Assembly (NCBI RefSeq): GCF_019649055.1
Contig: NW_026570415.1
Coordinates: forward strand, 62,001-126,000
From: Paramacrobiotus metropolitanus
Lineage: Eukaryota; Tardigrada; Eutardigrada; Parachela; Macrobiotidae
Length of the DNA stretch: 64,000 nucleotides
Direction of reading: 5' to 3'
Below the pieces are notes generated by a model that had not been told where the DNA came from, searched no databases, and was given only the letters and a program-made list of their open reading frames with translations. A program made the position numbers and the translations under genes. This document shows, one piece after another, positions 50 through 35,752 of the stretch. Numbering within the stretch: the first letter of the stretch is position 1; the number at the start of each line of letters is the position of its first letter.

Positions 50-1129
50 GTGGACCTTCACAGTTTCCATAACCGCCTAAGCCAGTACATTTCCTGGATG
101 CCAGTTCCACCGTCAAACATCCAGACCGCAGCACAGGGTCATGGTGTTGTGCTACCGACTGAATTATTCACGGAACTGTTCTCGTGTCTGGATACTGTAA
201 CGCAGACGAAGATTCGCATTGTCTGCGCAACATGTAACGCTATTCTGGAACAGCCAGTTTTAGCAGCGAACATCGTTCTCGTTAGCACGGCCAGACAGAC
301 TGCTTCCTGGATGCCCGGTTCCCTCCTTACTCTCGTCTTCAAACGCCTTTCAGCATCCACCCAACGCATTATTCTCACGGATCGCGAAAGATGTCTCAAG
401 GAAACCCACATCCTAAAACTGTTGGACATGATTCACTTCGTCGTCCAGCGGAATGCCAGAATCCGATTGCGAACGATTCATTTGTATGGAGTGCAGTTCA
501 GTCTGATGATCGGTAGCCGCTCCGACACGGTCGCATCCGCTGCTGAATCATCCGCTTGTAAGCTGCACCGGCCTCGTGAACCGTCTCGCAGCTACAGCGT
601 TAATCTCGCGGATTTCATCAGCGCCTGTAGCCACCTCCAGTGTCGTAGTATCCAGTTAACGCGGTGCACTATCAAGTTGATGTACACGGTGTCGCTGCCG
701 AAGCGGCGGGATCGGATACTGGATGCCCCGATCCACATTACGCAGCGTCTTCCGGGCGATGGCGACGTCGGCAGCGCGGTCCTGGTAGAGCTGCTGGCGG
801 GACTGCCAGCGATCACGGATGAGCAGTGGCAACGTTTGAACGGGATTTTCACCCAGGAATCTCCAGAAACTGTGGCCGCTGTGTGCCAGGTCAGCCAGAC
901 CGACGGATAAACACGGCGATCCAATCCTTTTATGTTTTCTTAAGAGCACCAACAATCGTTGGTTTTTTGGTAGGTGCTGTGTGCGACGCAATCGGTTGAT
1001 CCGCGTCCTTTTCCGCCCTATCGCGGGAAGAAGTTTTGTGTGGAAGGGATGGAGAATGTGCGGCTGGAAGCACTGTCCTTGTTGGCACTCCACTCCATCT
1101 TCCAGCTGGTTACGCGCGGGATGCGTTAG
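50..1129 (+). CDS. F-box protein of the Tudor/F-box family (5' exon lies outside the window)
   Basis: Two exons are visible: 50-889 (280 codons, opening right after an acceptor ending at 49) and 974-1129 (51 codons plus TAG). The donor gt is at 890 and both junctions are phase 0. An F-box starts near visible residue 35 (LPTELFTELFSCLDTV) and continues as IRIVCATCNAILEQP; the usual Trp of the VCATW motif is Cys here. About 200 family-specific residues follow, including the recurring IRLRTIHLYG block. The last exon carries the family C-terminal motif (DPRP..PYRGKKFCVEG). By analogy with 9699-11466 and 12467-14295, a Tudor-pair exon should lie just left of position 1. Known for the family: F-boxes bind Skp1 in SCF ubiquitin ligases. 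That this copy does so is inference. Confidence 0.8.
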
Positions 1130-2894: not shown

Positions 2895-3680
2895 TCAAAT
2901 TTTTATGAGCTGTTTGTTGTGTAAAGTTTCGTGTATACGTCGAAACCGCAGACGTGGTAGTCTGCGGACGCGGAGTGTTTGAAAAAGCGATAGGGGCATC
3001 GCGCATCCCAACCGTCCAGAGGCGGCATGATACTGCAATTCGCAGGACTTAAACGAAAATTTTTGGGAATAGAGCTTTGGCCAACTAGGCCGAAGCAGCT
3101 CTTCCTTCAGCTGGACATTGCGTCGGATGAACGCGCCGGGAGTCATGGGTCTGTGCAGTGCAGCGTAGTCGACAGCTGGAGATGTCGCGCGTCGTTTGAG
3201 GTCCTCCTTCACCATCGCCTGCATTTGATCCCGTTCCGGGTGCGAATAATGCTTATCGAAGTAGTCCTGGAACAGCGGGCAGACGAGGCGGTCGATGGGG
3301 ACGATTTCGGTGATGGATAGTCCCGTGGCAGCATCCTGCCATTGAACAACCGGCGCTTCGTAGAACGCGCAACACACACCGCGTCCATGACATGATATTT
3401 CCCCCGGGACCCACATCCACGGACCGGAGGGCGTCTCCTGGACCAAGACGACAACGGGAATGCTCGGCAGTTGTACAGCGTAGAGCCAGGTCACAAAACT
3501 TTCGTGCAGAACGCGCGGCAAGAAGCATTTCTCGGTGGAGTACCATTCGGGTCGCTGGTTGGGACACAGCAGATCGACCAAGAGCCCCGTCTCCTGGACG
3601 TCCACCAGACGGCCGAAGCGCAGTCGACCGTCGCGGCCCAGTATGTGTACACTGTTTTTCTGTTGGAAACCGTTGCACAT
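2895..3680 (-). CDS. Tandem Tudor (FMRP-like) protein without a visible F-box
   Basis: Single minus-strand frame. I start at the ATG at 3680 (MCNGFQQKNSVHILG) because every paralogue begins about ten residues before the motif NSVxVLG; an in-frame ATG at 3713 is possible. Tudor 1 is about residues 9-55 (HILGRDGRLRFGRLVDV, then LLVDLLCPNQRPEW). Tudor 2 is about 72-130 (VVVLVQETPSGPWMWVPGEI, then EIVPIDRL). A third block (TPGAFIRRNVQL, later ELQYH) matches the part of FMRP between Tudor 2 and the KH region. Paralogues splice after this point into an F-box exon. Here the frame continues about 30 residues past ELQYH to a stop and no F-box exon follows on this strand. It could be a free-standing Tudor gene or a copy that has lost its F-box half. 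Confidence 0.65.
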   Translation of the reverse strand: MCNGFQQKNSVHILGRDGRLRFGRLVDVQETGLLVDLLCPNQRPEWYSTEKCFLPRVLHESFVTWLYAVQLPSIPVVVLVQETPSGPWMWVPGEISCHGRGVCCAFYEAPVVQWQDAATGLSITEIVPIDRLVCPLFQDYFDKHYSHPERDQMQAMVKEDLKRRATSPAVDYAALHRPMTPGAFIRRNVQLKEELLRPSWPKLYSQKFSFKSCELQYHAASGRLGCAMPLSLFQTLRVRRLPRLRFRRIHETLHNKQLIKI

Positions 3681-4809: not shown

Positions 4810-6656
4810 TTATCGGATGAACTTAGCTGCATTCCTCAGCACTTCGACCAAAAAATACCGGGTGAGGCGCGACAGCTTCTCCATCCGCAGTTCTTCCAGC
4901 CCGTCCACGCACCACTTTTTGCCGTGGTAATGCGCCGACGGACGCGGATTAACCGACTGCACTCCACACAGTGTCTGCAGAACAGAATCTCGGCGAACGT
5001 TTCCCCCGAAGTCGCAAAAGAAGCGTTAGCACGGCATGGTTGCCCCTTTTACCTTGCAGAAGAGTTGGCGCAGCAGTTTCTTTCCCTTAAAATCCCCGCC
5101 AAGATTCAAATGCTTAACCAGCTCCTGTAGTTTCTCCACACGCGCCTCGGGTAGCCGCTCCTCCAGCGCATTCCACATTTCGCAAGCGAAATCAGTATCC
5201 AGCCGTAAACTGACACTGCGGATACTGATATGGATCTGTGCGCCAATCGCATCATCAATCAATCCGATGTAAAATGAAGAGAGCAAACTGACGACGCCCT
5301 TCGTTATGAGGACCCCATCGCACGGAAGGCTGCGGCATACGTCAAAGAAATCCTGCAGCCAACCACAACCGAATCCCGCATTTGATGGAGACGGGTGCAG
5401 ATCACACTCGACAGCGTGAGATGCATCGCGACTACTGGTGATCGCTGAGTCAACTACAGCGCGGTGCAGATGGATAGTCCGCAGTCGGATTCCGGTTTGA
5501 CGAGCAGCCCAATATTGGATCAAGTCGCTCACCGGCCACGCGTAATTCGAGAACTCCCACAGTTCTTTGTCGTGGCTTATCGTAAGACGGTGCGTACTGG
5601 GGCGCAACGACTGGTAAACGCTGGTCAGGTTAAGAAAATGTCGAGCATCGCTGTGGATAGCAATTGTGGAACTCAGTGCTGGCGCATCCATGATGTGGTT
5701 CCACGTTGCGCACACGGCCCGCAGCTTCTTCTGATGCACGGTGTCCAAATGGGAGAAGACCTCCTGCCACAATTCCACCGGTAGCGCCCCCTGCGCGACG
5801 CCGTTGAGGTTCGTGGACATCTCCGGCTTGTCGGTATGGAAATGCTGCACCATTCTAAGCAAGGCCTCGTGGTTGCCTTCATACAAAATGTTGATGGTTT
5901 TCTGAAAGTTCCGAACAAAATATAATTGTTGTTAGTATGTCCAACTGAAGAAGACAGTTGCCTCGGTTGAACGACCACTTCTTTGCTACCGACTTAACGT
6001 CTTTAGGCAGTTGAACTGTTAAATCAACGCACCCGATAAATGTATTTCAGTTCGCCGTCCACGAGATCCACCACAAATAACCCTCTGTGCCGAATCCCGC
6101 TGTCATTCACTCGTTTAAGGAGAGCTTTCGATTCCTCAGCGGAGAACGAGCGGAAACGCTCACCGAGCTGCACCTTATGCATAGTAAAGGCGCCTGCTTC
6201 AACACGGCCGTATGAGCGCAGTTCCGTCCGCAATTTAAAACGCTTTGCCTGCTTACGCCAGTTTGATGTATCCAAACGAGGACAAACGCGGTCAACGGAG
6301 ACGAACTCGGTGCAGAGCACTCCCGTGTCCGGAGTCTGCCAATGAACAACGGCCCCGGCGAATGTTTCCCGCGGTATCAGGCTCATTTCGCCATTCTGCC
6401 AAATCCACGGACCCGATGCTGTCTCCGGCACCAGAACCTCCACCGGAACGACGGGCTGCTGTTGAGCACGGAAATCGTAGAAATCGTTGCTGTTCAGTTC
6501 GCGCTTAAAGAAGACGCTGCCGAACGGCGCGTATTCACGTCGCCGATGGGGACAGAGCAGATCGACGAAAAGGCCATCCTCTGCCACATCCACGACGAGC
6601 CCGTAACGCATCCGCTCATCGTGGCCCAGAACGTTAACGGCGTTATCGCGGTCCAT
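4810..6656 (-). CDS. Tudor-Tudor-F-box protein (complete, three exons)
   Basis: Exons on the minus strand: 6656-6033 (208 codons), 5901-5053 (283) and 4974-4810 (54 plus TAA). All junctions are phase 0 and introns are 131 and 78 nt; predicted length 545 aa. Exon 1 has Tudor 1 (VNVLGHDERMRYGLVVDV), Tudor 2 (VEVLVPETASGPWIW, ending EFVSVDRV) and a block AFTMHKVQLGERF..FVVDLVDGELKYIY that lines up with FMRP just after its Tudor pair. Exon 2 has a well-preserved F-box near its residues 39-75 (LPVELWQEVFSHLDTV, LRAVCATWN). Exon 3 has NPRPSAHYHGKKWCVDG. No in-frame defect was found. Inference: an SCF adaptor whose Tudor pair recognises a methylated or RNA-associated partner. I did not see a signal peptide or membrane segment. 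Confidence 0.82.
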
Positions 6657-7454: not shown

Positions 7455-7925
7455 ACATTGAAACTGCGTGGACGTGCTGGGAGACGACGCCAGACCCAGC
7501 TACGGCCTACGGACACGTATTGGACGAGGCGTAGAACGGGCTGTTCATCGGTTCTCTGTGTACCCGACATCGACGCGAACTGGTAAAGTTCGAGCGGGTC
7601 TTCTTCAGCGATCGCAGTCGCTGTCTGGACGCGCACAAGCTGGACGGGGCCTTTCGCCGCTTCGGCACGCTCCCGCCGGTGGACGTCCTGACGCGGCAGA
7701 GCCCCGCCGAACCGTGGACGTGGTTGCCTGGGGAGATTCCAAGACCGTCCCACAGCATGCATGATTCGGGGTACAAATGAGGTGGTGGTCTCCTGGGACA
7801 TGTCATGGAAAATGCGGATGTCGTTCCACTGTCCGGAATCCGCTGGAGACAGCCGGCTGACTTCTGGCTATCCGGCGCGACAGCCGAAGATTACGGGAAA
7901 CTGCAAAGTGCACGTTTGGCACACA
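7455..7925 (+). pseudogene. Frameshifted relic of a Tudor-pair exon
   Basis: The nucleotide sequence closely follows exon 1 of the copies at 9699 and 12467 (for example GTGGACGTGCTGGGAGACGA at about 7467, and CCGTGGACGTGGTTGCCTGG around 7711). The frame is broken several times, so Tudor 1 and Tudor 2 are read in different frames with stops between. No F-box exon follows on this strand. This is a dead copy. Confidence 0.75.
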
Positions 7926-7959
7926 TGCACGTTTGGCAAGCCCTGCTTTAAACGGGCGC

Positions 7960-9698: not shown

Positions 9699-11466
9699 AT
9701 GCCTCCGTGGAATAGTGTGAAGGTGCTGGGAGACGACTCTAGACTCCGTTTTGGACGCGTGGTGGACGTGGCCGACGTTGGGCACCTCATTGACTTGTGT
9801 TCCAACCGACGACGCGAACTGGTCCCATTCGACCGCGTGTTCTTGAGCAGTCAGAGCCGCTGCCTGGACGCGGAGAAGCTGGATGCAGCCTACCGCCGTT
9901 TTGGACAGCTGCTGCCGGTGGAGATCCTGGTGCGAGAGAGCGCGTGCGAACCGTGGTCCTGGTTCCCCGGCGAGATCTTCAGTCTGGTGCGCAGCATTCA
10001 TTACTCGTGGTACAGCGAGGTGGTGGTTCGCTGGCGTCAGAACATAGAACAGTCGGACGTCGTTCCACTGTCGCGAATCCGCTTGAGACTGCCGGCTAAT
10101 TGGTGGACAACCGGCGCGACGAATGATGAGTACGGGAAACTGCCGAAACGCGTAACGAAGTACACGCTTGGCAAGCTCTACTTGCGCTTGCCGGGTTACA
10201 GTTCCCCGGGGGCGGTGGCCGCCGCTCTCGAGCAGCGCAAGATAGACGCAGAGTGTTTCGATTCGAGAGCCGTCGGCGTGGCCGTTGTGGATGGCTGTTT
10301 GCAGTATATTCAGCGGCGACCGAAAAAGAAATCCAGAACTGCGAGTAAAATTGTAAGTAATCCAATACCTGGTACAGCAGATTATATATAGTGCGCATCT
10401 TTTATTTCACCATTTGCAGGTAGAGCTCCACAGGTTCCATAAACGTTTAAATTACTACATTTCCTGGATACCAGTTTCAACATCGTATATCGCGACGGCA
10501 GATGAGGGTGAGGTCGCTGCGCTGCCGACCGAGTTATTCACGGAAGTCTTCTCGTTTCTGGATACGGTAACGCAGATGAAGACGCGGATTGTCTGTGCAA
10601 CATGGAACGCTATTCTGGAATCGCCTGTTTTAACAGCCAACCTCGTTCTCGTTACCACGGTCTTTAACACAAGTTGTCGGCTGTTCTTTTCCCTCCTTGC
10701 TCCGCTCCTCAAACGCCTTTTATCGTCGACGAAGCGAATTATTCTAACCGATCGTGGAAAAGTCCTCGAGGGCAACCACATCATTAAGGTCTTGGACATG
10801 AGGACATGATCCACTTCGTTGCACAACGAAATACAGGAATCCGATTGCGAACGACTCATCTGTACGGAGTGGAGTTCATTCTGCTGATGGGTACCCGCCA
10901 CGACACCGTCGCATCTGATGCGAAGCGATCCGCTTGTGTGCTGCATCGGCCGCGGGAACCGTCTCGCGACTCCTGCAGCCATCTAGTGGATTTCATCAGC
11001 GCCTGCAGCAATCTCCCGTGCAAAGGTATCCAGTTGACGTGGTGCACTATCACGTTAAAGTGCAACGTAGCTTCCATGAAGGAGGACCAATGGCCGAGCG
11101 TCTCGATCCATGTTACGCAGCGTGTTGCGGGGGATGGCGATATCGGCTGCGCGGTACTGGCTGCGCTGGAGGCCGGACTGCCTTCATTTAGAAAGGAGCA
11201 GTGGCGCCGTCTGGCCGAGCTGTTCACACAGGAACGCCAGGAAACCGTCAGCGTTGTATGTCAGGTTAGTCAAATCGGCCGACTATTTTAGCGATCCACG
11301 ACATTTATCGATAATTGGTGCGACGCAGTCGACTGATCCGCGTGCGTCATCTTGCTACCGTGGGAAGAAGTTTTGTGTGGAAGGCGTGAAGGGTGTTCGG
11401 ATGGAAGAACTGTCCTTGTTGGCACTGCACTTCCTCTTCAGGCTGGCGATGCGCGGGATGCGGTAG
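9699..11466 (+). pseudogene. Tudor-Tudor-F-box gene interrupted by an 8-bp duplication
   Basis: Exon 1 is 9699-10352 (218 codons: Tudor 1 VKVLGDDSRLRFGRVVDV; Tudor 2 VEILVRESACEPWSWFPGEI, then DVVPLSRIRLRLP). The intron is 10353-10419 and exon 2 starts at 10420 (VELHRFHKRL). The F-box is LPTELFTEVFSFLDTVTQMK with IVCATWNAILESP. At 10794-10809 the octamer GGACATGA stands twice in tandem. This moves the frame and stops translation at once; without the extra copy the downstream frame (IHFVAQRNTGIRLRTTHL and on) would be continuous. The exon 2 donor is at 11265. The usual acceptor is missing, but the ag at 11327-11328 restores frame into the last exon (STDPRASSCYRGKKFCVEG, stop 11464-11466). All else is intact, so the break is recent, or an assembly error. 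Confidence 0.78.
10794..10809. repeat. Tandem duplication of GGACATGA inside the F-box exon
   Basis: 10794-10801 and 10802-10809 are identical octamers. The three intact or near-intact paralogous exons carry this sequence once (for example GTCTTGGACATGATCCACTT at about 13586). Eight extra bases change the reading frame. Confidence 0.92.
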
Positions 11467-12466
11467 AGTTCCCGCTCTCAAGTTAATGCAGAAGTCAATA
11501 TAACGCGTCAAGGAGATCTCGGGGATATTCGTTTTGACAGGCTAGCGATAGCTTCGTCCTGTGTTGTCATGTAGTCTGGGGTTTGCCGTCAAATGTTGGA
11601 GATATTCACAACTGGCTTTTTACTCTTGTTTATGGCGATTTTTTTCCCTGCATGTTCAATATCGTTACCGCATTGTCCATACTCCATGTGTACTTATACG
11701 GTTTTTTTCGCTTGCTTGATCATAGGGTGTTTGTCATGTTTTCAGGATGTTGTCCGCGATAAGTTACAGTATCAACAGACTTTGTACAATAAAGGTTATT
11801 TTGGCGATGCACATTCTCAACCCCCGACAAATGCTCCCCGACATTTCGTCGACTAACGATTAGCAGTCTGTATAGTGGGCAATTGGGCATATGGAATGAC
11901 TCCCAAATTGTGATGGAGCTATTGGGAGCCGGCATTATTCTTTTCGATTATTTGCCAGTGGATACCGTTTTCTGCTTAGCTTGGTGATAAAGAAAGCTAC
12001 GCCTATGGCGGTTGCCGTTCCACTGCAAATTTCCGATCGAACCGGATGCAGAATGTACACAGGTCTACTGACCAATGAACGATGTGCGTACGGTACTGCC
12101 ACAGTGGCGCACAACCGACCGACAACCTTTGTTAGGCATAACACTTCAACTGATTTCATCGTCCGTAATGGCAGCCTTTCGTTTCTCATCGATTGTTCTA
12201 GTCTTAGCAATCCGGGCAATGTAAAATAACCAGCGGCAAGCCGAATTCGATAATTCTTGCTTACGGTTCGTCAAAGCCCACACAATTTTACTTAACGACG
12301 GAAGACTTTCTTTCGCTGTAAATTGGATGGAGAACAGTAGATTATCTTGGGTCTTTTCTTTTTATAACTACGTTTAGCGGTTTCAAGTGTTAATCGATCC
12401 TTTCTTTGGGTTTCCAGGTTCTTCTCAGTTTCCTCGCGATCATTATTGCACCACTCGTTTCTCAGG
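11467..12466. other. Intergenic, probable promoter of the next family gene
   Basis: No coding feature supported. The last 100 bases include a pyrimidine-rich acceptor-like string (TTTCTTTGGGTTTCCAG, ending about 12419), which may mark a 5' leader intron of the gene starting at 12467. Confidence 0.45.
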
Positions 12467-14295
12467 ATGGCCAACGGAATTTCCCAATGGAACAGCGTGG
12501 ACGTGCTGGGAGATGACGCCCGACTCCGTTACGGACACGTGGTGGGCGTGGCCGACGTCGGGCTCTTCATCGACTTTCTGTGTCCCAACCGTCGATGGGA
12601 ACTGGTCCCGTTCGACCGGGTGTTCCTCAGCGATCGCAGCCGCTGTCTAGACGCGCACCAGCTGGCCGCGGCCTGTCGCCGCTTCGGCACGCTCCCGTCG
12701 GTGGAAATTTTGATGCGCGAGAGCGCAGGCGAACCTTGGACCTGGTACCCCGGCGAGATCTTCAGTCTGGTGCGCAATCTCCACTATTCGTGGTACAGCG
12801 AGGTGGTGGTCCGTTGGCGGCACGGCGCAGAGCACGCGGATGTCGTCCCGCTGACGCGCATCCGGTGGCGGCTGCCCGTGTATTGGTGGAAGGGGCCCGC
12901 GGACGAGGACGAGTACGGGAAATTGCCCGAACGCGTGAGGAAAGGGATGTTTGCTGCGCGCAGTATTGTATTGCAGACAGATCACTTCCCGTTGGTTAGC
13001 GCAGCGCTCAAACACCGTAACACGGAGGCAACTCATTCCGCGGCGCAAGCAGCAGGGGTTCGTGTTACGCATGACTGTGTAATGTACGTCCAGCGCCGGT
13101 ATGCCCCGGTTGCACAGCGCCGAGAGATGACCGCTGTTGAAACGGTAAAAAGTGTCTCCTGTGGCGATATCTGGCTTTCTATTAAGTCTCTTATGACTCT
13201 AAATTCCAGGAACCCCTCATCATCTTCCATCGCCAACTGATGGATTACGTTTCGCTGATGCCGGAGCCTGCGCCGCCGCCGACTGTAGACATGTATGAAG
13301 GTGCTGTGTTACCGGATGAACTGCAAATCTTCTCCTTCCTTGACACACTAACGCAAACGAAGCTGCGCGCTGTGTGCACAGCGTGGAACGATGTAACGGA
13401 ATCGCACTTTTTAGCTGCCAATCTCGTTCTCGATACTGCGGCCGTCCGCAAGACCCGACCATGCAAAGATTTCTGGCTGACGTACTCGCTCATTGCTCCG
13501 CTATTCAAACGCTTGTCTTTGTCCACGCAACGGGTCCTTCTCACTGATCGCGGACGCTGCCTCGAAGGTAGCCACGTGATTAAGGTCTTGGACATGATCC
13601 ACTTCGTCGCACAGCGCATTCCCGCAATCCGACTGAAAACGATTTGTTTGCATCGATTAGATTTCAGTCTGATGATCGCCACGCGCTACGACACGGTGAC
13701 ATCCGACGGCGAACCATCCGCCTGTGTGCTGCATGGGCCGCGTGATCCGTCCCGCAACTTCAGCATCAATCTGGCCGGTTTCATCAGCGCCTGCAGCAAT
13801 CTCCCGTGTGGCAGTCTCCAATTGACAAGCTGCACCATCACATTGGAGTACATGGTATCGCTCATCGAGAGACAGAGTGAACTGGTGTTGCACGTCCCGA
13901 CCCACGTGACGCAACGGGTTGCGGGCGACGGGGATGTCGGCTGCGCGGTGTGGAGTGCGCTGGAGGCGGGGCTAACGGCACCCATCTGGGAGCAAGTGCA
14001 TCGGTTGGTGGAGTGTCGGACCGCCATGATAGCCGCCGTCACGGCGGGTGAAGACTGTCGAGAATTTATGGCCGTTGTCTTCAAGGTGAGGTCCAACGAT
14101 ACGAAGAAACCTGCCAAGTATTAATTTTCCTTTTGGCAGATGCTGTGTGCAGCGCAGTCCGCTGATCCGCGACCCTCGACGCATTGCCGCGGGAAGAAGT
14201 TCTGCTTGGACGGTATGGAGCGTATTCGTACGAAGAAGTTGTCGGTAGTGGCGCTGCGGTTCCTGCGCCAGTTGGCGTTGTGCTGGGTAATTTAG
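12467..14295 (+). CDS. Tudor-Tudor-F-box protein (complete, three exons)
   Basis: Exons 12467-13144 (226 codons), 13210-14085 (292) and 14140-14295 (51 plus TAG); introns 65 and 54 nt, all phase 0, predicted 569 aa. I chose the ATG at 12467 because MANGISQWNSVDVLG matches the start context of paralogues. Tudor 1 is near residues 11-55 (VDVLGDDARLRYGHVVGV, LFIDFLCPNRRWELVPF). Tudor 2 is near 86-142 (VEILMRESAGEPWTWYPGEI, later DVVPLTRIRWRLP). The F-box begins near residue 262 (LPDELQIFSFLDTLTQTK, LRAVCTAWNDV); it is slightly shortened after DELQ. The last exon has ADPRPSTHCRGKKFCLDG. No defect seen. It is the best reference copy on this strand. Inference: SCF adaptor with an FMRP-type reader. 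Confidence 0.85.
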
Positions 14296-15338: not shown

Positions 15339-17474
15339 ATGCATCAGCAAGAGCTGCATTTTTTCCATTCCACGCTCTCCGTCTCTGTCCATGTTCTCGT
15401 ACTGCTTTCCATTAGCCCATCATCGTCTTTTAGTGAGAATATCGGTAAATTCTTTCTTTTGCGAGAAAACAAACAGGCACAATTACATTCTCTCTAACTG
15501 CAGATTTTGCGCAGTACATTCCCGCCGATGACTTACAAGCCATCCAAAGCGCGGAGATTAGTGTCGCGCTGTCAAGCGGGACGCCGTTGTACCAGGATGA
15601 TCTGATCGGCTGCACGGCCGGGGCACATCCGCCCTGTCCGCTGCAGACGTCCAGGGCGCCGTATTATCGGCTGCCGGATGGGAATCTGGCCATTCCCTAC
15701 ATGGTGGAGCCGGATGTCGACGGTACGCTACCAATACGAACATTTTTACGAATTACTTGGATCTTAGCTACGTTCCAGTACATGGTACCGTATTGAACTA
15801 TAGAACGAGCTTGTAATTATACTACAACGAGAGGCCAGGTTTCAGCTAATGTTATATACAGTAATTACATAAACGCTTGCATAAATAGACACAGAAGGTT
15901 CGTTTTGCTTAAACGCATAAGCCCGCGAAAAAATAAACAGTTAAGGAAACCAGAGAAACCTAAGATATACATAGCTCTGAGTTAGCAGGATTTTTTGTCC
16001 GAAGCCAGTCTGTAAAAGAAAACGTTGCAAGGGAAACTGAAAAAAATTAATTCTATCATTTACAGTTCAGTGTGCGCTTAATTTTATGAGTAGGTACGCT
16101 ATGAAAATACAGAGTACTAGTCGAGTTTATTAGAAATTTTTTTCTGCGAATTGTGTGGAGTAGATGCACTGATGGACGACATTGTCGCTGCCTTGGACGA
16201 CATCACCAACCAGACGCAGTGCGTGCGGTTTCTCTCGGTGGACGACGCTGACGCGCTGAAAGTGCCCAACAACCCGACGATCCGCTTCGCCAGTGGCCAG
16301 AGTGGTACCTGCGCCGCGGAGTTTGGGGGCGTGCGTAGTCCCATGCACAAAGTGTACCTCAGCACCAAATGCATCAGTGCCGGCGAACTCGGCCGCATCC
16401 AGCAGCTGCTCATGTTAGCAATGGGATTCCCACATGAGCACGTTCGCAGCGACCGAGATGAGCATATTATCGTCAACTGGGATAACGTCATCCCAGGTAA
16501 TAACCGAACATCTATTAGACCGAAACAGAAATGAATCTCTGCTGTAGAAAGGAGAAATGAACTGGATAAAAACGATCCGGGAATATTCGACACGCTACCC
16601 TACGATTACGACTCGCTTCTGCATCCGGGCTACGTCTTCCTGGCGCAGGTGGCCAGCATTCCGACGCTGATGGCCAAAAATAAAGCGAAAATTGGTCAAC
16701 GCCAGCAGCTGAGTGCCGGTGACGTGAAGAAACTTAAAACCGTTATTTGCCAAGGTAGCCAACACTTTTTTCGCCGCTCCAGGTTTTGCTGTATAATATA
16801 ATTTGCAGGTTCCACGCAACAAGCCGCGCCCAAACCAAAGCCCACACCCACAAGCAAACCGCCATCACAACAGGATTTCAAGTCCGCCAGCATTGTCACG
16901 GTGACCGTCGTCGCCACGAAACCGCAGCCAGGAACCACATGCGATAGGTAACTAAGAACCCAAAGAACCCTAACGAACCCTACATTTAAATGCTGTATTT
17001 ACAGTGGGGATCCCTCCTGCGCAACGACCAGCGTTGGCGAGGAACCCATCCAGCCCTCGCTGAGCCTGCCCGTGCACCACTGCGCCTTCCGGCAGGTGGT
17101 CACCCTGCACAACACCCAGACCATGTCGCGCACCACCCTGTACCCGATGAAGAAGCGCTTCCAGCACTCCACCAAGTTCTCCACGTGGTGGTTCGGCCAG
17201 ACCGAAGCCGGTAAACCGACGGTCTTGTGTTTTCTGCGTTGTCGAATCATTTGATGTGGAATCTGCAGGTGCGACCAAGGATTACCTGGCGCAGCCGGTG
17301 GAGTACCCGCAATTCCTAGGTGCCGTTAAAGGCGTGTCCACGCAACTGGCCAATGAGTACACGCGCATCTTCCAGACGGATTATGAGCCGAGTGTGATGG
17401 AGGATGGGGGAACGAGGTTGCAGCAGAAGATCGAGACGCGCATCATGGAGTGCAGAGATCGGCCGTCGTCTTGA
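15339..17474 (+). CDS. Secreted astacin-like protein lacking catalytic residues (seven exons)
   Basis: Exons 15339-15444, 15504-15722, 16164-16496, 16548-16754, 16809-16947, 17005-17210 and 17269-17474 join in frame to 471 codons. The start encodes a hydrophobic signal-like stretch (STLSVSVHVLVLLSIS). The astacin fold is recognisable: IPYMVEPDVD, then CVRFLSVDD, MHKVYLSTKCIS, the GF.HEH.RSDRD...VNWDNV segment, YDYDSLLHPGY at the Met-turn, and IGQRQQLSAGDVKKL. The zinc signature HExxHxxGFxHE reads QLLMLAMGFPHE: the first His, the catalytic Glu and the second His are Gln, Leu and Leu. The Met-turn SxMHY is SLLHP. After the domain comes a Pro/Lys/Thr linker (about 45 aa) and about 135 residues of unknown fold. 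Known: astacins need these residues for zinc-dependent proteolysis. Inference: an inactive, perhaps binding-only, extracellular protein. Paralogue at 62369. Confidence 0.82.
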
Positions 17475-18252: not shown

Positions 18253-20045
18253 TCACCAAAAAGTGGGCCAGGTCATTTCGAAAACGGCATTTGTGTGGGA
18301 AATTGCGCAGTACATTAAGTACTGTGACATCCGCGTCAGCGGGATCACTTCCGACTCCAGTGGATCGTATCCTGTTGGAACGTTGCCTAGATCACTGTAA
18401 TTCTTCCGTGAAGAAGTGGCCAGCACCTAAGGAAAACCAGTCTCTCAAAAGTAAAAACAAACCGTAAATCGCAAATTCATCTTGCGCTCGTGAAGGATGA
18501 TCCGTACCGCATCTAGCAACCCATTCCGTTTTGGATCCATAATCGCGTCAAACACAAGGTCCGCTTGTTGCTCATCCAACACAGGACAACTTCGTTCGAG
18601 CATGTCCCACCAATCTGCAACGTTCAGACGCCGATCGTGGCGCATCCGTCCGAACGGCACGCGGATCGTCATCACCACACATCCCTCCGCCCAAAACCAG
18701 AAAATCTCACAGCCGAAGTTTATCACAGTGAGCTTGTGACAGATCGCCGCTAGCGAGTCAAAAACGCCGTGAAGAGTAGACACGTAATCCTCGGATAGTC
18801 CGGACGAATAGCAGCAGTTGATATCCTTCATAACGAGATTCTCCGGGAATTTCTCGGCTCCTCCTTGCATAACTTCGCGGAGAAAGTCTCCATCACACAA
18901 CGGCCAGTGCACTTTAGAGGAATCGCTGACGGGCGCGCCCACAATGACCACCGCCCGCGGGCTCCAGCAGCGATGTGCACAGGCCACAGCGACGTAAACA
19001 TCTCCCGCGGAGGATGATCCTCTTTCAGTAGGAATCTGGATATGCAGCCGCTTTCTTACAGCGGCCGATGTGAGGATGTGGTCCCAGCCGGCGCAGACTG
19101 CCCGCAGGCGGCACTGATCGACCGTGTGCAAAAACTGGAAGATCGCGGTCATTATATCCGCTGGTAAGAAGCGGAGAGCTTTTCCGTCATCAGGGATCGC
19201 GGAATTCATCACGAACGAAGTTAGGCGACCGCTGCAAGCGAATTCCGTCTTCTGGCGTTTTACCGCAGCTTGGAATACGGGCTCGCGTCCACGCTTTCTT
19301 AAGTTGACGGCATCTGCGCTGCATTGTTCGAGTCGGTCAGGTCGGAGCAGGGATTTACTCTGCAACAGTCAAAGGTGTATTTCCCTTCAGTTACATCGCA
19401 ACGTCGCATAGTCTGTTGCGTTTCTTACATAAAAGCGCATTGCTTTCGCCACATCACTGATCGGGATGCCCTTTTCCAGTTCGTGGGCCAGCGAAAACCT
19501 GTGCATCGGGCTTCTAATGCGCTCCAGTGGAACGACGGTTTTGACGTCGCCGCCCGGCAAATGGATGGCAACCCATGCAAACTGCTGATGCTGCCAGTCA
19601 TAGACCAGAGCAGTGGCCGCTTGCCAGGTCCACGGCCCAGACGGAGTGAGCTGCATCAGCACCTCCACCGGTTCGCTGAATCCTGCAGAAAAATCTGTAT
19701 AAAGAGCGCCGCTTCACTGACTAACCGCCTTATTTTACTGAAATTTCAGACTGGTACGTCCGTTTGCTTTCGAAGTCCCTCGGAGTTGTCTGTTTTTGGG
19801 CCAAAATAATAACAATAAGTACCTTGATTTCCGCAGAACGGAAGGAATAGATTTTTAGGCGCATAGGGATAAACCCGCGATAGAAAGGCTCGATTCCAGG
19901 GAATCCATTCGTTCCGTCGTCCTGCGCAGTGGAAATCGACGAGCAGTCCGCTTCTGGATACGGCTACTGTAATGGCACACTGGAACGCTCCATCTTTACC
20001 GCGGACTTCCACAATTAAAGGATGGTCTCGCGAACTCTTCGTCAT
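18253..20045 (-). CDS. Divergent Tudor-Tudor-F-box protein with an extra intron between the Tudors
   Basis: Minus-strand exons 20045-19823, 19682-19429, 19359-18463 and a tentative 18426-18253. Phases agree throughout (223 + 254 + 897 + 174 nt, about 515 aa). Tudor 1 (VEVRGKDGAFQCAITVAV, then WIPWNRAFL) is the copy closest to the FMRP start I remember (VEVRGSNGAF). Tudor 2 begins VEVLMQLTPSGPWTW and ends VVPLERIRSP. Unlike its paralogues, an intron splits the two Tudors. The KH0-like block is short. The F-box is near residues 207-250 (LPADIMTAIFQFLHTVDQ, LRAVCAGWDHIL). The last intron would be only 36 nt; if it is not used, the protein ends at the stop at 18445. The final exon keeps little of the YRGKK motif. 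Confidence 0.72.
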
Positions 20046-21456
20046 TTCGGATCTGCTTGACCAATCAACATAAGAAGCCTGTGTTCGACTATCAAAAATC
20101 CGCTCTAAAAATTATTATCGAGCGGCCGACCCATACTGCGCAACATCGTATCCAAAGTTCCAAACTAAGTGATGCTAAGGAAGTATAAAACGGCTAAATT
20201 CGGCGACTATACTAAAGCCGAGGAGATATTAATCCTTATATCCCAATGTACGTGAGCAATACATCCGGATCATAAAGCAGCCACGAATCTGTACACGGAT
20301 ATTCACATGGAGCGGCCGTCGCTAAAAGCTGGTTCATTAATTTGGCAGGGCTTTGCCGGCTTATTTTACTGTAGAAGTATAATATTACATTTATGAGTCA
20401 GTTTCCGCGCTTCCATCTATCTGCCTAACACCACGAGTCAGGAACTGCGTTCAGTGCCGCTCATGCAGTTTTTGAATTACGAAAACTGTTGAATTGTTCT
20501 CGGGCTTTACTGAAATTCCACTTACGCTTTTGGAGCTGCATTTTCATCCCTTTTCTAAATATCCCATGAATTGAAACAGTAACATTCGCCTGGAAAATTT
20601 ATCGCAATTTAAAGTTACTCTGGAAAGTTACTAGCAGACTAAGGGCCTACTGAGGCATGCTAAGTATCGCACCCGAGGCGCCAGCACGGTGTGACGCAGG
20701 ATGTGAGGCGCGATGTGAGGCGCGTTGTGACCATTACGGTGCCTTATCGCTAGCGTGCCACAGGGTGTGACGCTGGATGTGCCGCGCCAGCGGCACATTG
20801 CGGTTACACCCATATTTCTGGCGTGCTTTACGGCGGAGTACGGTGACGTTTCGCTGGTGTGAGGCTGGATGTGACCCGCCAAAGGCTCCTTACGGTGACC
20901 ACTACACTGTACAGCGCCCTATCGCTGGCAGTGTGTCTGTGACGCGCCCGAATGCATTTCGATGTCGCTAAAACTGCTGACAATTTTTTTTGGAAACATG
21001 ATCAATACTTCAACAAATATTCTGGTCGATGAAAAATTAAAACGACCAACTGTAACAACAGCAGATACCAAAAAAATTGCCGCAACGAATCCCAAGTAAA
21101 CGAAATAAATCGGAATAAATTTTTTAAGGATTAATCAATCCAGACCACAAAAAAATTTTCAAAAAATAGCTAATACTTAAAAATCCAGCAAATCATTTAC
21201 ATGCCAGTAAAACTTAATCAGTTATTAGCAAAGTAAGGCTTTTTTTTTAAGTGCCGCAAAAGAAATAACTTGGACAAAGCCAAACTGCTGCAATCTTTCA
21301 GGCCGTCGACGCACCACCTCATGCCGCGATAAATGTCCACTGCGTTATACGTACTTCACACTACAAAATCATAAACCATGAAGTTTTGCGTACAACGAAA
21401 TGTCAATAAATAATAGCTATAAAAACACATTGATGAACTTTCAGCCCACCAACCGT
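20046..21456. other. Intergenic with a GC-rich degenerate repeat patch
   Basis: About 1.4 kb with no supportable gene. The flanks are A/T-rich; 20680-20960 is clearly richer in G and C and is described separately. Confidence 0.5.
20680..20960. repeat. Degenerate GTGACGC/GGATGTG repeat patch
   Basis: Short related strings recur: GTGTGACGCAGGATGTGAGGCGC, GATGTGAGGCGC, GGTGTGACGCTGGATGTGCCG, GGTGTGAGGCTGGATGTGAC, and TTACGGTG three times. The copies are too diverged to define one period by eye. The base composition contrasts with both flanks. Confidence 0.55.
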
Positions 21457-22911: not shown

Positions 22912-24365
22912 TTATTCACCGACTGTTTTATTCACACAGTTAACACAAATATTATAAGTATGCTCACCACAAGCAGGAACTCTGCACAAAACACAGTATT
23001 TAGTTGTCTTTCGATCCGTACCTTTTACGCACACTTTACAGCGCTTCTGGCCAGTAAAGGGAGGCGCAGGAATTTGCTGCATGGGTCGACCCGTTTCCTC
23101 TGGAATCTTGAGTAATGCCTTGATAGTGCCGCGCACCGTGGCGTTAATGTGTTTCAGTTCCAGGCGTCGACGCATATGGTTTTCTAGCAGCTCTTCTGCT
23201 AGCGATTCTAAAAACAGTCGTCTACGGTATTTTGCTCGGCTCCAAGCAAGGTTTAATTCGATCCACACCACAAACGCATTTAACGCAGATATGTCAACCA
23301 TATCGTAGAACAGAATTACTGGCCAACGACGCGTGCGACGCTTCACGCTGTACATGGTAACCATTTGGTCCAGGGAGTCGACTCCAGCTTTCGTTTCGTT
23401 GTATGTGGTGATGATGACAGGTTTCTTCTCACTGGTCGTTTCAACCGCAGCATCACGGTGGTGGTGCTGAGAAGTATAACTGCTTTGCCAATCTTTGGAA
23501 CATACGAAACCAGTGCGGCTTCCTTTGTGAAACCAAAAAGACTAGAAAATTCAGCACTTTCTCTGGATGGTAAAAAAGCTGCTGGTATCTCTGGCTTATT
23601 CTTGCGCATCGTGCCAACCAGAGTGATATTTCGTTTGAGCAGCTCAAGGCATGCAAATGTTGATATCAGGGTCGACCCAATTCAAATACGGATGTTCATA
23701 AAAAATCTCAAGCACTTTTAAAAGTAGTTGTACAAAGCTAAGAACGATTTACCTAATTCGAGATCTGTGAAGAAGTTGTCTGTCGTAACATTTCTTCCGG
23801 AGTCGACTCCTAGGTACTGCACAAGATCCAAAACAACACGGCGCCCTTGATTTCTTTCTGGAGGGACGCCCGGAGATTTTCCCGTGTACACTTGTATGTT
23901 GCAGCAGTACTTCGAGGCAGAATCAGCTAAGATAGAATTCTTTAGCCCGTACTTTGAGGGTTTCTTCGGAATATACTGCTTGAATTTGCGGTGGCCGTGG
24001 AACGAGTACAGCTGCTCGTCTATAGTGAGATAAGGACCAGGTAGATAGGAATTTCGCAACGTTGGTACCCACAACTCAAACAACTCCCGAATATGTGCCA
24101 GTTTATCAGTAAGTTCGCGCAGGTATCGTGACTTTTTATTATCAAAACGGAGTGCACTAGATATTTCGCTAAAACGATTTCGAGACATGGTGGCGTTGTA
24201 AATGGGTCGACCCTTCGCTTCGTTCCACAGCTGGCACAATGGTTTCTTGCTTTCGTGATTCACGCCGTGTAGAATCAGCAAGCCCAGAAACGCATCTAGT
24301 TCGATTGCATCCAGTTCCGTCCACGACTTCGAAAACATAAGCTTTAGGACTGGTTTTGACCGCAA
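22912..24365 (-). pseudogene. piggyBac transposase, N-terminally truncated and frameshifted
   Basis: 24365-23718 encodes the catalytic core: AFLGLLILHGV, TMSRNRFSEISSALRFDNK, PGPYLTIDEQLYSFHG, QYIPKKPSKYG and DNFFTDLELG. These are typical piggyBac segments around the first and second catalytic Asp. The next part (LLKRNITLVGTMRKNKPEIP) resumes after about 65 bases that may be an intron or damage. Near 23456-23467 the frame shifts, and the C-terminal part (DSLDQMVTMYSVKRRTRRWP, MVDISALNAFVVW) is read in 23364-22912. It ends in a cysteine-rich finger (CKVCVKG..TKYCVLC..ACGEHTYNICVNC). The N-terminal region before the catalytic core is missing. Known family: cut-and-paste transposase inserting at TTAA. 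This copy cannot encode a full enzyme. Confidence 0.85.
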
Positions 24366-25259
24366 GCGCCGACATCCGTAACAGCCCGACTGATTAGTAA
24401 ATTGAGGCGGACACGGTGCAGATGGACGGCGCGCAGTCGCATGCCGGGGTGATCATCAGCCGTCCTAAGGACAGCGTGCAACATCCTCGCCACGTACTTG
24501 GTGTCGCATTCCCCGTGTTCGGGCGACGTAAAGATGAGTCGTTGTGTGGCGGAACTTAAGCATAGGTACACCGTCATCAAGCCGAAGTAGACTGCCTTAC
24601 ATCCGTTGTCTTGCCGGTGGATGACGACAGTGGAACGCAGTGCTGGGGCCTCCAGAATCAGGTTCCACAGGGCGCACACATTCCGCAGCTTCATTTGCTT
24701 TAAAGTGTCCAGGTGGGAGAAGACCTCCTGCAACAGTTCCACCGGCAGCCCCTTCACGGTCAGGTCAGGGGTTGCCGGAGCGTGGTAGGCAGACACTGGA
24801 TTATGCCGAGCACTTGATCTCGGAAGTAATCGGCAAAACCCTGCAACAGAAACATCCATAAAGAGCCGAACATTTGCCGAATAAAAGAACGAGTTCCCTC
24901 TCACTGGCAAACCAGACGCTTGTGTTTCGACCAGCTTGCAAGCGCCTTCCAACTTCCCGTCTATAAGATGGACGACGGAGAAATCCCGACAGTAAGGATG
25001 CAGCAGGAAGCCATTCAGTCGCTTGATGAGCGCTTGGGTTTCTTCAGTGGACGGCGAGCAAAAGTCTTGGCCGAGGTCCACACTGAGCATGACAAAGGTC
25101 CCTGGACTGACGGATTCGTGGAGCGAGGCGTTTTCATCCGGAACCACAACTAGGCGAGTGCGTTGAAGGGGAACGATGTCGGCGCACGGGATGCTGCTGG
25201 CGCGGTCCATACTGTTGGAATCGTTGGACGTGGTTGCGCACTGGAGAGTCTGATTCGAA
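24344..25259 (-). pseudogene. Truncated Tudor/F-box family copy joined to the piggyBac remnant
   Basis: A continuous minus-strand frame runs from an acceptor at 25260-25261 to a stop at 24344. It begins inside Tudor 2 (ADIVPLQRTRL), then the KH0-like block (PGTFVMLSVDLG, DFSVVHLIDGKL). A stretch containing a likely unspliced intron follows (acceptor GTTTCTGTTGCAG at about 24852), then an F-box (LPVELLQEVFSHLDTLKQMK, LRNVCALWNLIL). The exon is cut after MRLRAVHLHRVRLNLLISRA, where transposase sequence starts. Tudor 1, the second half of the F-box exon and the C-terminal exon are absent. This is a pseudogene broken on both sides. Confidence 0.72.
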
Positions 25260-26516
25260 ACCTGTTAAATGCACACACGTCAAGATGCTCAACTGGCATG
25301 AGCCAAAATAACCGAAATAAAACAGCCAAAAATGTTTAGGCTGCTGGTTCACTGTGCAGACGTGCCTCATGTAACGAAGATCAATGGAACACTATTACTA
25401 TTCCACTACTAGCGATGCCATAAGCTGCGCTTTGTGATCGTAACGCATAGTTCTGTAGAAAGTGCGTTCAAAATTCAGTGTAGGGCTTTTATACAGTAGC
25501 GTCGTTTTAGCGGATGCACTATGTACGAAGTTCTGCCGACCAATCAGAGAAATATCGATAAACTGTTGACTCGGCCGCAGCCAGCGCGAGCCGGGCTGCA
25601 AATTCATGAAGTAGCATGAAAAAGCAGGCAGCACACTGAATTTGCCAATTGACTGTCAATGTATTTCAGCCAAACGAGCCGAAGCAATCTGTTAGCAAAG
25701 CTTGTCTAAGCATGGCGCAATTGTAGATCCTTTGCGCAGCTTTGCATTCCTTTAACGATGCCCGTTTAAATAATTCTGATTACTTGATATCATTAAGATG
25801 TAACCTAACTTCTTAACTGGTGATCACAAACCGGAAACCGCGCACTGTACTTCAAAACTGAAAAAGTAGAAGAACTTAATTTTTTTGTAAACCGTAAAAC
25901 CGCTTGATAAAATGGCGATGGTCACTTATTAATGTTTTGCTAGGTCTGCTTACTTATTGTGGCAGATCCAGGCGGCATCCGAATCCTGACAAGCTTGGCT
26001 ATATGCAGTATACGACGGAGATCAGTCGTAGCATACAGCTAAGCTAGTAGCGTCCCTTTTAATCGAAAATTTCCTGTGTAAAACAAAGAAAATTGGTGCG
26101 ATCTCTAGCCTATTTGGTTAGCTGTTACTTATATGTTCAGCTCAGCCCATGCAAGTTAGTTTCATGTGATGTTACGATGTAGTTAGTGGTCAGTTGGTGT
26201 GTAATGCTGGACTTGTCGCTCGATTGAAGGTGTGTGACACCACTGATATTAGAAATATTTGAGGTAATTGTGGAATGTAGACCATTTTACTGTAGAAAAA
26301 TGTTGAAAAAAACCGGAAGTTAAAGAATCAGTGTTTGTAACTGGGCAGAGACAGAGTAGGATGTAGTAGCCTTGCAAAGGGCGTCCGGCGTTTAGTGAAG
26401 GAAGAGGGTGATAACGCTGTAAGAGGAGAATCCTCTGTACACACAGCAGCTGCCCATCCGCCGCCTACCTGGTTGGCTCAAGCTCAAGCACAAATATCTT
26501 GATCTTCGCCAACAGC
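25260..26516. other. Intergenic
   Basis: About 1.25 kb with no supportable gene. Tudor 1 of the truncated family copy would be expected here and is not found. Confidence 0.5.
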
Positions 26517-30639: not shown

Positions 30640-33600
30640 ATGGTTCTGAAACGTAAAGCTGAAAGATCTGCTGGAAGATCAGTAAGGAGAGCGAGACGGG
30701 ATGATGATGCAGGTATGGGCAGCCGCATGTGAATTTAAACCAAACCACGAAACAAAAGCTTTTTATTAGGACCATCCCGCTTAAACCATTCACCACGGGC
30801 AGGCGGTCACGGAACACCACATCAGAGCAGTACGTTTATTGTTACGGCCACTTTATGCAAGTAACTGCATAGTGGGTTTAAACAGGCGGAAGTGAAGAAG
30901 GGACCCGTCCGTTGAACAAAAACCAAAAACAGAATGCACGTCAAGCTAGAAGAAGAGCGAGTATGTCCTCTGAACAGCGACGATCGAAAAAGCGGCGCGA
31001 CCGAGAAGCAGCTGCCCGCAGGCGCGGCATTGGAGAACGTAGCCAGAGCGACGCCGCAGCACTTGCTCAGAATCGCCAAGCGAATACCCAACACCAAGCA
31101 AGAAGGCGAGCTAATTTGTCATCTGCGCAACGGCGATCCAAACAACGCCGAGATCGGCAAGCGGTTGCCCGTAAACGTGAAGCTGGAAGAGTGAGGCAGC
31201 ATGAAAGTGAGGCACAACAGCAGCGAACTCGAAAACTTAATGCCCAACGTCAAGCTACAAGGAGAGCTAATATGTCATCTGCGCAGCTCCGATCCAAACA
31301 GCGCCGAGACAGAGAAGCGGCTGCCCGCAGACGTGAACTAGAAAAAAATCGGCAAGACGACGTTTTTGGACAACAACGGACTCGGCAGCTCAATGCCCAG
31401 CGACAAGCAAGAAGGAGAGAAAACATGACGTCTGCGCAGCGACGATCCAGGCAGAGGCGTGATCGTGATGCTGCTACTCGTGCACGGCTTGTCCTTGACC
31501 CTAAAATTCTGGCAACAACTCTCGAGCAGAAAATACGAGCACTAAAATGGGCAACTTGCAAAGGATGCAGCGAAGCATGGCCCGGGCTAAAGGTAGACAA
31601 AAAACACATGTGTTCCCATTGCCGGAAGCCAAACCCTAAATTCACGAATACAAACAATATGGATCCAGGCGAAGTGCCACCGGAACTAAAGTGTCTGTCC
31701 TTTGTTGAGCAGCAATTAATTGCCAGAGTTCATCCAGTTGTGTCGGTTTACAAAATTGGGAAAGGACAGCAACTTGGATATTCTGGCAACGTGATAAATT
31801 TCCTTCAAGACGTAAAGGAATTCGCGAAAAAGCTGCCTCATCTTCCGAATGACCTGATATCAGTAGTGGTTATCAACCGCCAAGATGCTGACAATTACAC
31901 TGCCTTTAACGTGTCATCAGTGAAAATCCGGCGCGCCCTGATATGGCTCAAACGAAACAATATGTGGTACAAAGATATAGAAATTGATGAAGTTGCGTTG
32001 AGTTCGTTACCGAAAAATGGCAATATCCACTCCTTGTTGGCAAGTATGAGCGGAGACAATTTCCTGTTACCTGCTGACGATGAGCGTGTGATCGACACTG
32101 GAGTGCCCAATATACTGCAAACCAACCAAGCAGCTAAGATAAGAGACGCAATCGGAGCGGACAACATTAATGTTCCGTATCCGGCAATGGCAGACATACC
32201 AATTGACGAATTTAATACTGCGGGATACGTGGCACAGGCATTTCCATGCCTTTTACCAACTGGAAATGCAGATTTACGTGATAACAGAGGCCGACATACA
32301 CCAGTATCTGAAGCCGAATACTTCAAGCATTTGATGCGCATTTCAGATGGCCGTTTTGCAAAGCACCCCACGTTTCGGTTTTTTGCTTTAAACAGCCTAT
32401 TGCGGTGGCAAGCAATTCAAACGGGGCAAATTTTTGTTAGAAAAAGTTCGCTGGGAAACGTGACCTCCGAACAGCTACGTGAAATGCTGAATTCCAATCC
32501 CCAACTCATCAAGCAAATTATGAATTACGGATCAAAACTACGAGGAACCAGATCATATTGGTTTCAACGGAGCGCGGAATTGGGAGATATGGTCAGATCA
32601 ATTGGAGTTCCTACGCTTTTTATTACTTTGTCAGCTGCAGATCTTTACTGGCCAGAATTATATGACCTGATTGGTCTTCAAACGGACGTGGATAATTGCA
32701 CTGAACGGGAAGCACTTCGAAGAAAAACAAAGGCGCTACAGGAAAATCCTCTGATAGCAGATTGGTTCTTCGTTGAAAGATCGCAGCTGTTTATACATAA
32801 AGTGCTCGGGCCGAAGCTTAAAATCAAGGATTTCTGGTATCGCTATGAGTTTCAACACCGGGGCAGCGTTCACCTGCATGGGCTTTTGTGGCTTGACGAA
32901 GCACCTGACGTTACCAGACTAAACGAGATGGACGCAGAAGAACTGCAGAATATAACTGATTATTTTGACGGAATCATAACGGCAACAAACCCCGACATCA
33001 ACGCCACTGCTCCTTTGCAACATCCTTCTGGTATCCGCCTGAGCGCTGTCGCCGATTGGGATACAGACTACGTCAGTCTTGTCAATAAAGTGCAACGCCA
33101 CACAATATGCAAGCCAGAAACATGCTTAAGAAAGGACAAGAAAACCGGTCAACAAAAATGCCGGTTTGACTTCCCGCAAAAGCTGCTCGCTCTCAGCGCT
33201 TTGTGCGCTACAGAAGGAAAGTGGGGCTACACTCCCAAAAGAAACGACCCTCGAGTCAACCGCCACAACAGAGGAATTCTGCAAGCATGGAGAGCGAACG
33301 TGGACGTTTCTGCAATCACTGATAAGCAGGCCGTTATTAACTACGTCGCGAAGTATGCCTCCAAAGCAGAACCTAGATCCGCCACCTATGCAGAAATCTT
33401 TCGCACAATTTTGGATGCGGGTGCCTCTGCATCTGATAAAGCGAGAAAATCAATTCAAAAACTGCTTACTAAATCCGTATCAGAGCGAGATATTTCTGCA
33501 CAAGAATGCATGCATCTACTGATGGGACACGACTTGTACCGCAGTTCGCGCAGTTTTGTCAACATCACATTAAAAAATGACGAATGGATCCCCTTGACAA

Positions 33601-35752
33601 GTGTACAAACTGATGATGAGTCACCCGAAGGCCAAGGAAAAACAATCTTGGAGAAATACAAGTTGCGTATTCCGGAGATGGAAGAACTGTCGCTATTTGT
33701 AGTGGCGTCAAAATATTCTTGGTCTCGACAGAATTGGAAAAAAAGAGCGGAAAACAAGGAAGCAGTTGTGCGTGTATTTCCTCGACTAACGCTTACAGGT
33801 AACCTAACCAATCAGTAATGCAATAAACGTGTTGATATTTCAACACTGGATATTTACAGGCGACGCAAACAAAGACGAAGAGTTCTACCGGCAGAAAGTT
33901 TTGTTGCATTTACCTTGGAGAAACTCCGATTCTGTCCGTGACCCTGAAGCAACATGGGAAAGCATTTATATAACACTTGACATCCCCAGAGAAACCGACT
34001 TGCCCGATGCAGAAGAAAACACTGACTTGTCTGACAACGAGGAAATCGATGAGCATCGCGAACAAGAAGAGCATATGGTTTTGCAAGGGCTCGCACCGCA
34101 TGCTGATTTGCCAAAAGTGGAACTGGGCACCCGCCAGATCGATAAGGATTTTGACTGGACCGCATCGTACGACCACTTCGCCGGCATTGGTAGCGCTAAC
34201 ACTTTTCTCGAAAGGATTAAATCTGAAGGGAACGAAGCGGACGATCAACATCATCTACCACTTAATATACTGCTCTCCGGTGAACAGCGCGCTGTATTCG
34301 ATTATTTTTGCGGACAATTGGATGGAACGGTGGAACATAAGCTTACCGTGGTCCAGGGGAAGGCTGGAAGTGGCAAATCGACTGTAATTTCATTTTGCAC
34401 GGACAGACTTCGAACCTCAGTTGGATACGGGCCGAAGTCATATAAATTATTAGCTCCCACGGGTGTTGCAGCCAATAATATTGAAGGAGAAACAATACAC
34501 TCGGTTTTACATATCCCCGTAAACAAAAAGTTTGTGGATTTAGAAGGCGAAGAGCTGAACCGTTTCCAGGCAGAATTTGAAAATATACACTGTTTGATCA
34601 TCGATGAGTTCAGTATGATCGGATGCTCATTGTTCGCAAAAATGGATAAGCGATGCAGGCAAGCGAAGCCGGAAAACTCGGATATACCGTTTGGTGGCTT
34701 AATTGTATATCTATTTGGGGATATCAACCAGTTACCACCGGTGCTCGACAGACCACTGTATGGGGACGGCTTTAATGGGGAGCTGGCAGACTACGGTCAA
34801 ATGGTATACCGAACTGCTTTCAATAAATGTTTTATTCTTCAAACGTCCCACCGGCAAAGCGGCGGCAACACTGACCAACAGCATTTGCGAGATGCTCTAG
34901 ACCGCATCAGCACCGGTGACTCAACGGAAGAAGATTACAACAAAATGATGACCAGAGTTTACTCGCTTTTGCCCGCGGAAGAGCAGATTAATTTCCGAGG
35001 AGCGTTACATCTGTTTTCGGAAAGAGAGCCAGCCAAAAACTACAATGAGAATGCGCTAACACAGCTTAACATGCCGGTGGCCAGAATACGGGCGGACCAT
35101 AACGGAAACACTGCGGCGAAAGGTTAGTTTACATGCCAATATATTTCTGCAAACAACCTTCTTATTTCCTATTTATCACATGGAGATATGGATATCTGTC
35201 TATTCAACAGGAACCGAAGAGCAGGCGATGGGTTTAGAGCCCACTTTATACCTGTCACGAGGCAGCAGAGTCATGCTCAAACGAAACCTCTGGACTTCAA
35301 AAGGGCTCGTTAATGGTGCGTTGGGATATGTCAGGGACATTGTGTATGAACCCGGAACATCGCCGTCTGATTCCGTGCCGTACGCCATTTTTGTGGAATT
35401 CGATAAGTACACTGGACCAACGTTTGCAAATAATTGCGTGCCAATAACGCCCATAACTACCAAGTGGATGGAAAAGTCTCAAAGCTGTTCCAGAACACAA
35501 TTCCCATTAACTTTGGCTTGGGCCATTACAATTCACAAAGGTCAAGGGATAACATGCGACAAAGCCGTGGTGCATATTGGAAAACGCGAATTTGCGTCGG
35601 GACTCATTTACGTCGGATTTTCACGCGTTAAAACCTGGAGCGGTTTGGCCATTGAACCAGTCTTTCCGTATCTTTTGTTGCAGTCCATAAAACATAAGAA
35701 AGCCACTCAACAAAGAAAGCGGGAATTAGAGCGGTTAAAACGCATGGCCTAA
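30640..35752 (+). CDS. Helitron RepHel protein (Rep nuclease plus PIF1-like helicase), four exons
   Basis: Exons 30640-30712, 30886-33798, 33860-35122 and 35211-35752 join to 1,596 aa with no frame break. I start at the ATG at 30640 because exon 1 (MVLKRKAERSAGRSVRRARR) splices in phase into the long exon, which has no ATG of its own before 30963. Order: four Arg-rich repeats (MSSAQRRSKQRRDREAAARR type) to about residue 215; a CxxC..CxxC segment (CKGCSEAW, CSHCRKP) with a Helitron-associated upstream domain; the Rep part with the two-His motif HRGSVHLHG (near 32856) and tyrosines YVAKY (33341-33355); then an SF1 helicase with Walker A GKAGSGKST (about 34360), Walker B IIDEFSMI, GDINQLPP and a C-terminal AITIHKGQG..YVGFSRV. 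Known: such proteins drive rolling-circle transposition. No added endonuclease domain seen. Confidence 0.9.

Follow-up and report, generated by a model that had tools for sequence, protein, structure and literature searches.

Two tandem genes of a multi-exon F-box family

The window analyzed here is a 64,000-nucleotide stretch of the genome of the tardigrade Paramacrobiotus metropolitanus (contig C195, positions 62001–126000); the genome searched comprises 169.8 Mb in 533 contigs. The span 9699–14295 of the window holds, on the + strand, two tandem copies of a three-exon gene that joins a head homologous to the N-terminus of the FMR1/FXR proteins to an F-box. The second copy (12467–14295), hereafter the focal gene, is intact, has phase-0 introns and encodes 569 amino acids. 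In the first copy (9699–11466) exon 1 is open and the exon 2 frame is broken, continuing in two frames near 10800. The content of each exon is given in Table 1. A preliminary description of this DNA had placed the first junction of the focal gene, 13145–13209, correctly, and left exon 3 unmentioned.

The head and the F-box exon form one gene

The fusion was assessed at 60 loci plus the window, where 74 exon-1 matches correspond to 72 places, two being second views. In 65 of these 72, the next 2.5 kb downstream hold an F-box exon of the same orientation, and 54 of the 65 have exon 3 as well. Six of the seven places without an F-box exon are at the ends of the examined DNA, and the seventh (window 3096–3680) genuinely lacks one within that distance. 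Twelve of the 16 predicted NCBI models were placed on loci; the first junction fell at residue 224–256, with GT–AG ends, in all 12. One copy in the window (40332–41669) has only 30 bases between its matched Tudor and F-box parts; the mapped introns are all at least 59 bases long. Moreover, in the structural model of one NCBI protein (P0001), the last helix of the KH0-like domain (residues 238–252) straddles the exon boundary at 240/241, so that the predicted domain needs both exons. Single-frame fusions in the loci L012 and L031 were set aside as proof of fusion, as a stop-free intron could explain them, and an F-box exon seemingly lacking exon 1 (C8:1384942) turned out to have a divergent exon 1 upstream. 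Judged from the genomic sequence, the fusion of exon 1 and the F-box exon is real.

The head is homologous to the FMR1/FXR N-terminus

Structure comparison of AlphaFold models showed that the ten best PDB matches were all FMRP/FXR N-terminal structures, both for focal exon 1 (best E 1e-7) and for a paralogue (best E 5e-9), and that the alignments to full FMRP run on through KH0. A search of a viral structure library returned nothing at E ≤ 0.001. With an exon-1 profile, the genome's own FXR gene outscored all 11,062 decoys; against PDB sequences the same profile gave eight matches under E 10, and the only Tudor proteins among them were FXR1 and FXR2. Focal exon 1 alone, in a single-sequence search of the PDB, found nothing up to E 10. 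In Pfam searches of 59 single exon-1 copies, none reached the cut-off, with sub-threshold matches to Agenet (5/59), Tudor_FRX1 (2/59) and nine other families, and an Agenet scan of the genome gave nothing over the cut-off. The significant Tudor/Agenet match on which the preliminary description depended was thus obtained with the profile and fold tests and not with Pfam on single copies. Its two Tudor-like domains in exon 1 are backed by the predicted fold and by the comparison with the genome's own FXR, and the FMRP-like block it saw after the Tudor pair sits at the position of FMRP's KH0 and, as modeled in P0001, would have the KH element order b-a-a-b-b-a. We conclude that the head is homologous to the N-terminus of FMR1/FXR.

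The genome's own FXR-type gene (C5:3432891–3433952, − strand) combines two KH_1 domains with Tudor_FRX1 in a single 630-amino-acid frame. Tudor_FRX1 also exceeded the Pfam cut-off in short frames of about 100 amino acids at C106:65813–65929, C209:97496–97603 and C106:35488–35625. For KH domains, nine family proteins showed no match at E ≤ 0.1, and none of 41 KH_1 places in the genome lies on C195, C82, C35, C267 or C278; the same scan found two in the native FXR on C5. Since these searches for KH1 and KH2 came up empty, we do not file the family among the FMRP/FXR members. A genome scan with PF12235 (RGG/C-terminal core) had no match anywhere, the native FXR included, and was therefore uninformative.

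In FXR1, the methyl-lysine pocket of Tudor 2 is described as Y95, W97, V66 and E104 (PMC2970552). Across the 59 exon-1 copies tallied at FXR1-aligned positions, position 66 is V or I in 52, position 95 is W or Y in 42 and position 104 is D or E in 58; W97 could not be placed because the aligned FXR1 letter is A. The equivalent of FXR1 W78 is W in all 59 copies. Among the ionic-lock positions, 53 copies have E or D at E65, 56 keep R112 and 49 have D or E at E6, and R47 is replaced by F in 49; the native tardigrade FXR has Y there. From these residues, Tudor 2 may possess a pocket of the methyl-lysine type.

Exon 2 encodes an F-box

With 25.0 bits against a Pfam cut-off of 24.3, focal exon 2 scores as F-box-like, and PF00646 matches 42 of 50 exon-2 copies at E ≤ 0.01, in agreement with the standard F-box reported at first. 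In structure comparison, the modeled F-box of the family matches the Skp1-bound F-box of Skp2. By these features, the family members are F-box proteins.

The family occupies about 300 places in two subfamilies

When focal exon 1 was used as the query, at least 145 genomic places were found, a recurrence far beyond chance, and eight of those listed carry stops. A divergent relative as the query gave at least 160 matches, some of which are pieces of one copy. The second subfamily, of the NCBI LOC129599034 type, lies on C1, C135, C204, C31, C8 and others, mostly on contigs other than those of the focal subfamily, and no overlap was seen among the matches compared on contigs present in both lists. 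Of its 60 best places, 56 are followed within 3.5 kb by a matching F-box exon in the same orientation, compared with 7 for an upstream and 2 for an opposite-strand F-box exon. Both subfamilies together amount to about 300 places, fragments included; since the lists contain pseudogenes and fragments, this number counts places and not working genes. Protein searches for relatives outside P. metropolitanus gave only its own 16 proteins, although at least 145 places exist in its genome, so absence from other species is not implied.

The claim of an FMRP-type head fused to an F-box in an expanded gene family is therefore upheld by fold, profile, exon order, shared junction and place counts.

The Tudor domains are more constrained than the F-box exon

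The ratio of nonsynonymous to synonymous substitution rates (dN/dS) between close paralogues indicated purifying selection on exon 1 (0.21–0.51, 18 pairs; here and below, pairs share members and are not independent). Within it, the Tudors gave 0.11–0.29 and the KH0-like part 0.19–1.14 (9 pairs each). Values for exon 2 were 0.41–0.73 (7 pairs, two of them with dS near 0.04 and hence noisy ratios), exceeding those of the Tudors in all five pairs measured for both. The part after the F-box gave 0.47–0.55 (four pairs). Of three pairs with a value for both, two place it above the F-box; this comparison leaves out three of the seven exon-2 pairs, which lack an F-box anchor. Among the 16 NCBI proteins (P0001–P0016), mean pairwise identity was highest in Tudor 1 (0.62), followed by exon 3 (0.51), the F-box (0.48) and Tudor 2 (0.39); the post-F-box part (0.26), the KH0-like part (0.23) and the linker (0.19) were the most variable.

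These data do not support the earlier proposal of substrate choice by the FMRP-type reader: constraint is stronger on the Tudors than on exon 2, and the linker, KH0-like and post-F-box parts vary most. Constrained Tudors with a looser exon 2 fit a Tudor ligand shared by the family, with target choice residing elsewhere.

Further copies and neighbors in the window

Other copies in the window are listed in Table 1.

Table 1. Exons and copies of the gene family in the window (window coordinates)
Position	Strand	Feature
9699–10352	+	Upstream copy, exon 1, open
10420–11264	+	Upstream copy, exon 2, F-box, split across two frames near 10800
11329–11466	+	Upstream copy, exon 3
12467–13144	+	Focal gene, exon 1: Tudor 1, Tudor 2, most of the KH0-like domain
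13210–14085	+	Focal gene, exon 2: putative last KH0-like helix (by analogy with the P0001 model), F-box, leucine-rich-repeat (LRR)-like region
14140–14295	+	Focal gene, exon 3: conserved tail and stop
50–1126	+	Exons 2 and 3 of a copy with exon 1 just left of the window (C195:61289–61978)
3096–3680	−	Exon 1 copy; F-box exon not found within 2.5 kb
4813–6656	−	Three-exon copy: exon 1 6027–6656, exon 2 frame 5029–5931, exon 3 frame 4813–5025
7535–7948	+	Exon 1 fragment containing stops
18448–20111	−	Divergent copy: sub-threshold Tudor_FRX1 (E 0.0053) in frame 19749–20111, F-box in 18448–19368
24347–25264	−	Truncated copy: end of head and F-box share a frame; transposase frame adjacent
40332–41669	+	Tudor pair and F-box in a single frame, 445 amino acids; most of the KH0-like part gone
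41750–41974		Frame with the exon 3 match for copy 40332–41669

The transposase frame adjoining the truncated copy (23721–24365, −) is of the DDE_Tnp_1_7 (piggyBac) type. Elsewhere on the + strand, the window holds a frame matching astacin peptidase (16151–16531, E 1.6e-13), a Helitron-type element with Helitron_like_N, DUF6570 and a PIF1-like helicase (30912–35752), and long-terminal-repeat-type retroelement frames for gag, aspartyl protease and reverse transcriptase/RNase H (47732–55169). Two long frames (55280–60421, +) adjoin this retroelement; the first ends in a stretch resembling linker histone (E 1.6e-5), and a Pfam search of the second gave no match.

A likely family of ubiquitin-ligase adaptors

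The gene anatomy, the fusion, the relationship of the head to FMRP/FXR, the absence of KH1 and KH2, the number of places and the purifying selection were all established by computation. We consider it likely that these genes constitute a very large, lineage-expanded family of adaptors of the Skp1–Cullin–F-box (SCF) ubiquitin ligase, each with an FMR1/FXR-homologous head of Tudor 1, Tudor 2 and a KH0-like domain, followed by the F-box, a variable LRR-like region and a conserved tail, and without KH1 or KH2. As the F-box itself suggests, this domain would dock on Skp1 in the ligase. The conserved tandem Tudor may hold the ligase on a ligand common to the family, either a methylated protein or an FMRP-type partner, and the faster-changing post-F-box region, perhaps together with the KH0-like part, would pick individual ubiquitylation targets. 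The constant parts (Tudors, F-box and tail) would thus engage common partners including Skp1, the variable parts would choose targets, and the expansion would represent a lineage-specific diversification of target choice, like that of nematode F-box families.

A different role is unlikely, namely that the proteins bind Skp1 without being ubiquitin-ligase adaptors or, with a decayed F-box, act as free FMRP-like competitors in RNA granules. Non-SCF F-box proteins do exist, eight of the 50 exon-2 copies have no PF00646 match at E ≤ 0.01, and the copy at 40332–41669 has lost most of its KH0-like part; however, few parts of these proteins are better conserved than the F-box, which also matches the Skp1-bound F-box of Skp2. 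Quite unlikely, in our view, is that the head is an integrated bait that mimics FMRP/FXR and catches proteins attacking FMRP granules or riding on them (factors of parasites or viruses, selfish elements, partners of FMRP), which the SCF ligase then destroys. If so, what is usually a regulator encoded by a single copy or a few would have grown, in one tardigrade lineage, into an arsenal of as many as about 300 adaptors for degradation. It is very unlikely that a generic tandem Tudor/Agenet module (of the plant AGDP, SHH1/SAWADEE or UHRF1 type), with an unrelated small domain behind it, makes up the head and merely resembles FMRP, since FMRP/FXR take the ten best places for both models, no Tudor proteins other than FXR1 and FXR2 occur among the eight PDB sequences under E 10, the native FXR piece scores far above the decoys and the alignments continue through KH0. 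Finally, that exons 1 and 2 are separate neighboring genes deserves almost no credence: some gaps between them exceed 2 kb, but order and strand are conserved at 65/72 and 56/60 places, 12/12 placed models share one GT–AG junction, one copy has both parts in a single frame and the boundary cuts a predicted helix.

Comparison with known systems

Few RNA-binding proteins have been studied as much as FMRP; to our knowledge, the function of its Tudor–KH0 head on its own is unsettled. Evolution has here detached this head, placed it on what is likely an adaptor for degradation and copied it to about 300 places; the pairs measured are under purifying selection. The family thereby offers a natural mutational scan of the Tudor–KH0 module and a route to its ligand. 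Tardigrades are known for stress tolerance, and the family adds, in such an animal, a case of a large F-box family gaining a new head beside the helix-turn-helix (HTH) capture in nematodes. No earlier description of an FMRP-head/F-box combination was found in a full-text literature search whose reach excluded most subscription journals and all bioRxiv preprints.

The N-terminal domains of FMRP, FXR1 and FXR2 (PDB 4qvz, 4ova, 3o8v and 3h8z) have the same Tudor–Tudor–KH0 order. Relative to them, the tardigrade family keeps in kind W78, the pocket positions V66/Y95/E104 and E65/R112, whereas it has an F-box, KH1 and KH2 were not found and R47 is mostly F. Alternating helices and strands after the F-box also occur in FBXL proteins such as FBXL2 and Skp2. 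A parallel in family architecture is the Caenorhabditis F-box A2 family, which combines a Tc1/Mariner HTH, an F-box and an FTH domain, the C-terminal FTH domain showing stronger signs of positive selection (PMC12062965). Like the tardigrade family, it is large and lineage-specific and has gained an N-terminal domain that is under purifying selection; as described there, however, its head is transposase-derived rather than FMR1-related, and it belongs to another phylum and carries another C-terminal domain. An F-box protein and an FXR protein are also linked in SCF-Fbxo4, for which FXR1 is reported as a substrate (PMC5688124); in the tardigrade family, by comparison, the FXR-type head is part of the likely adaptor itself.
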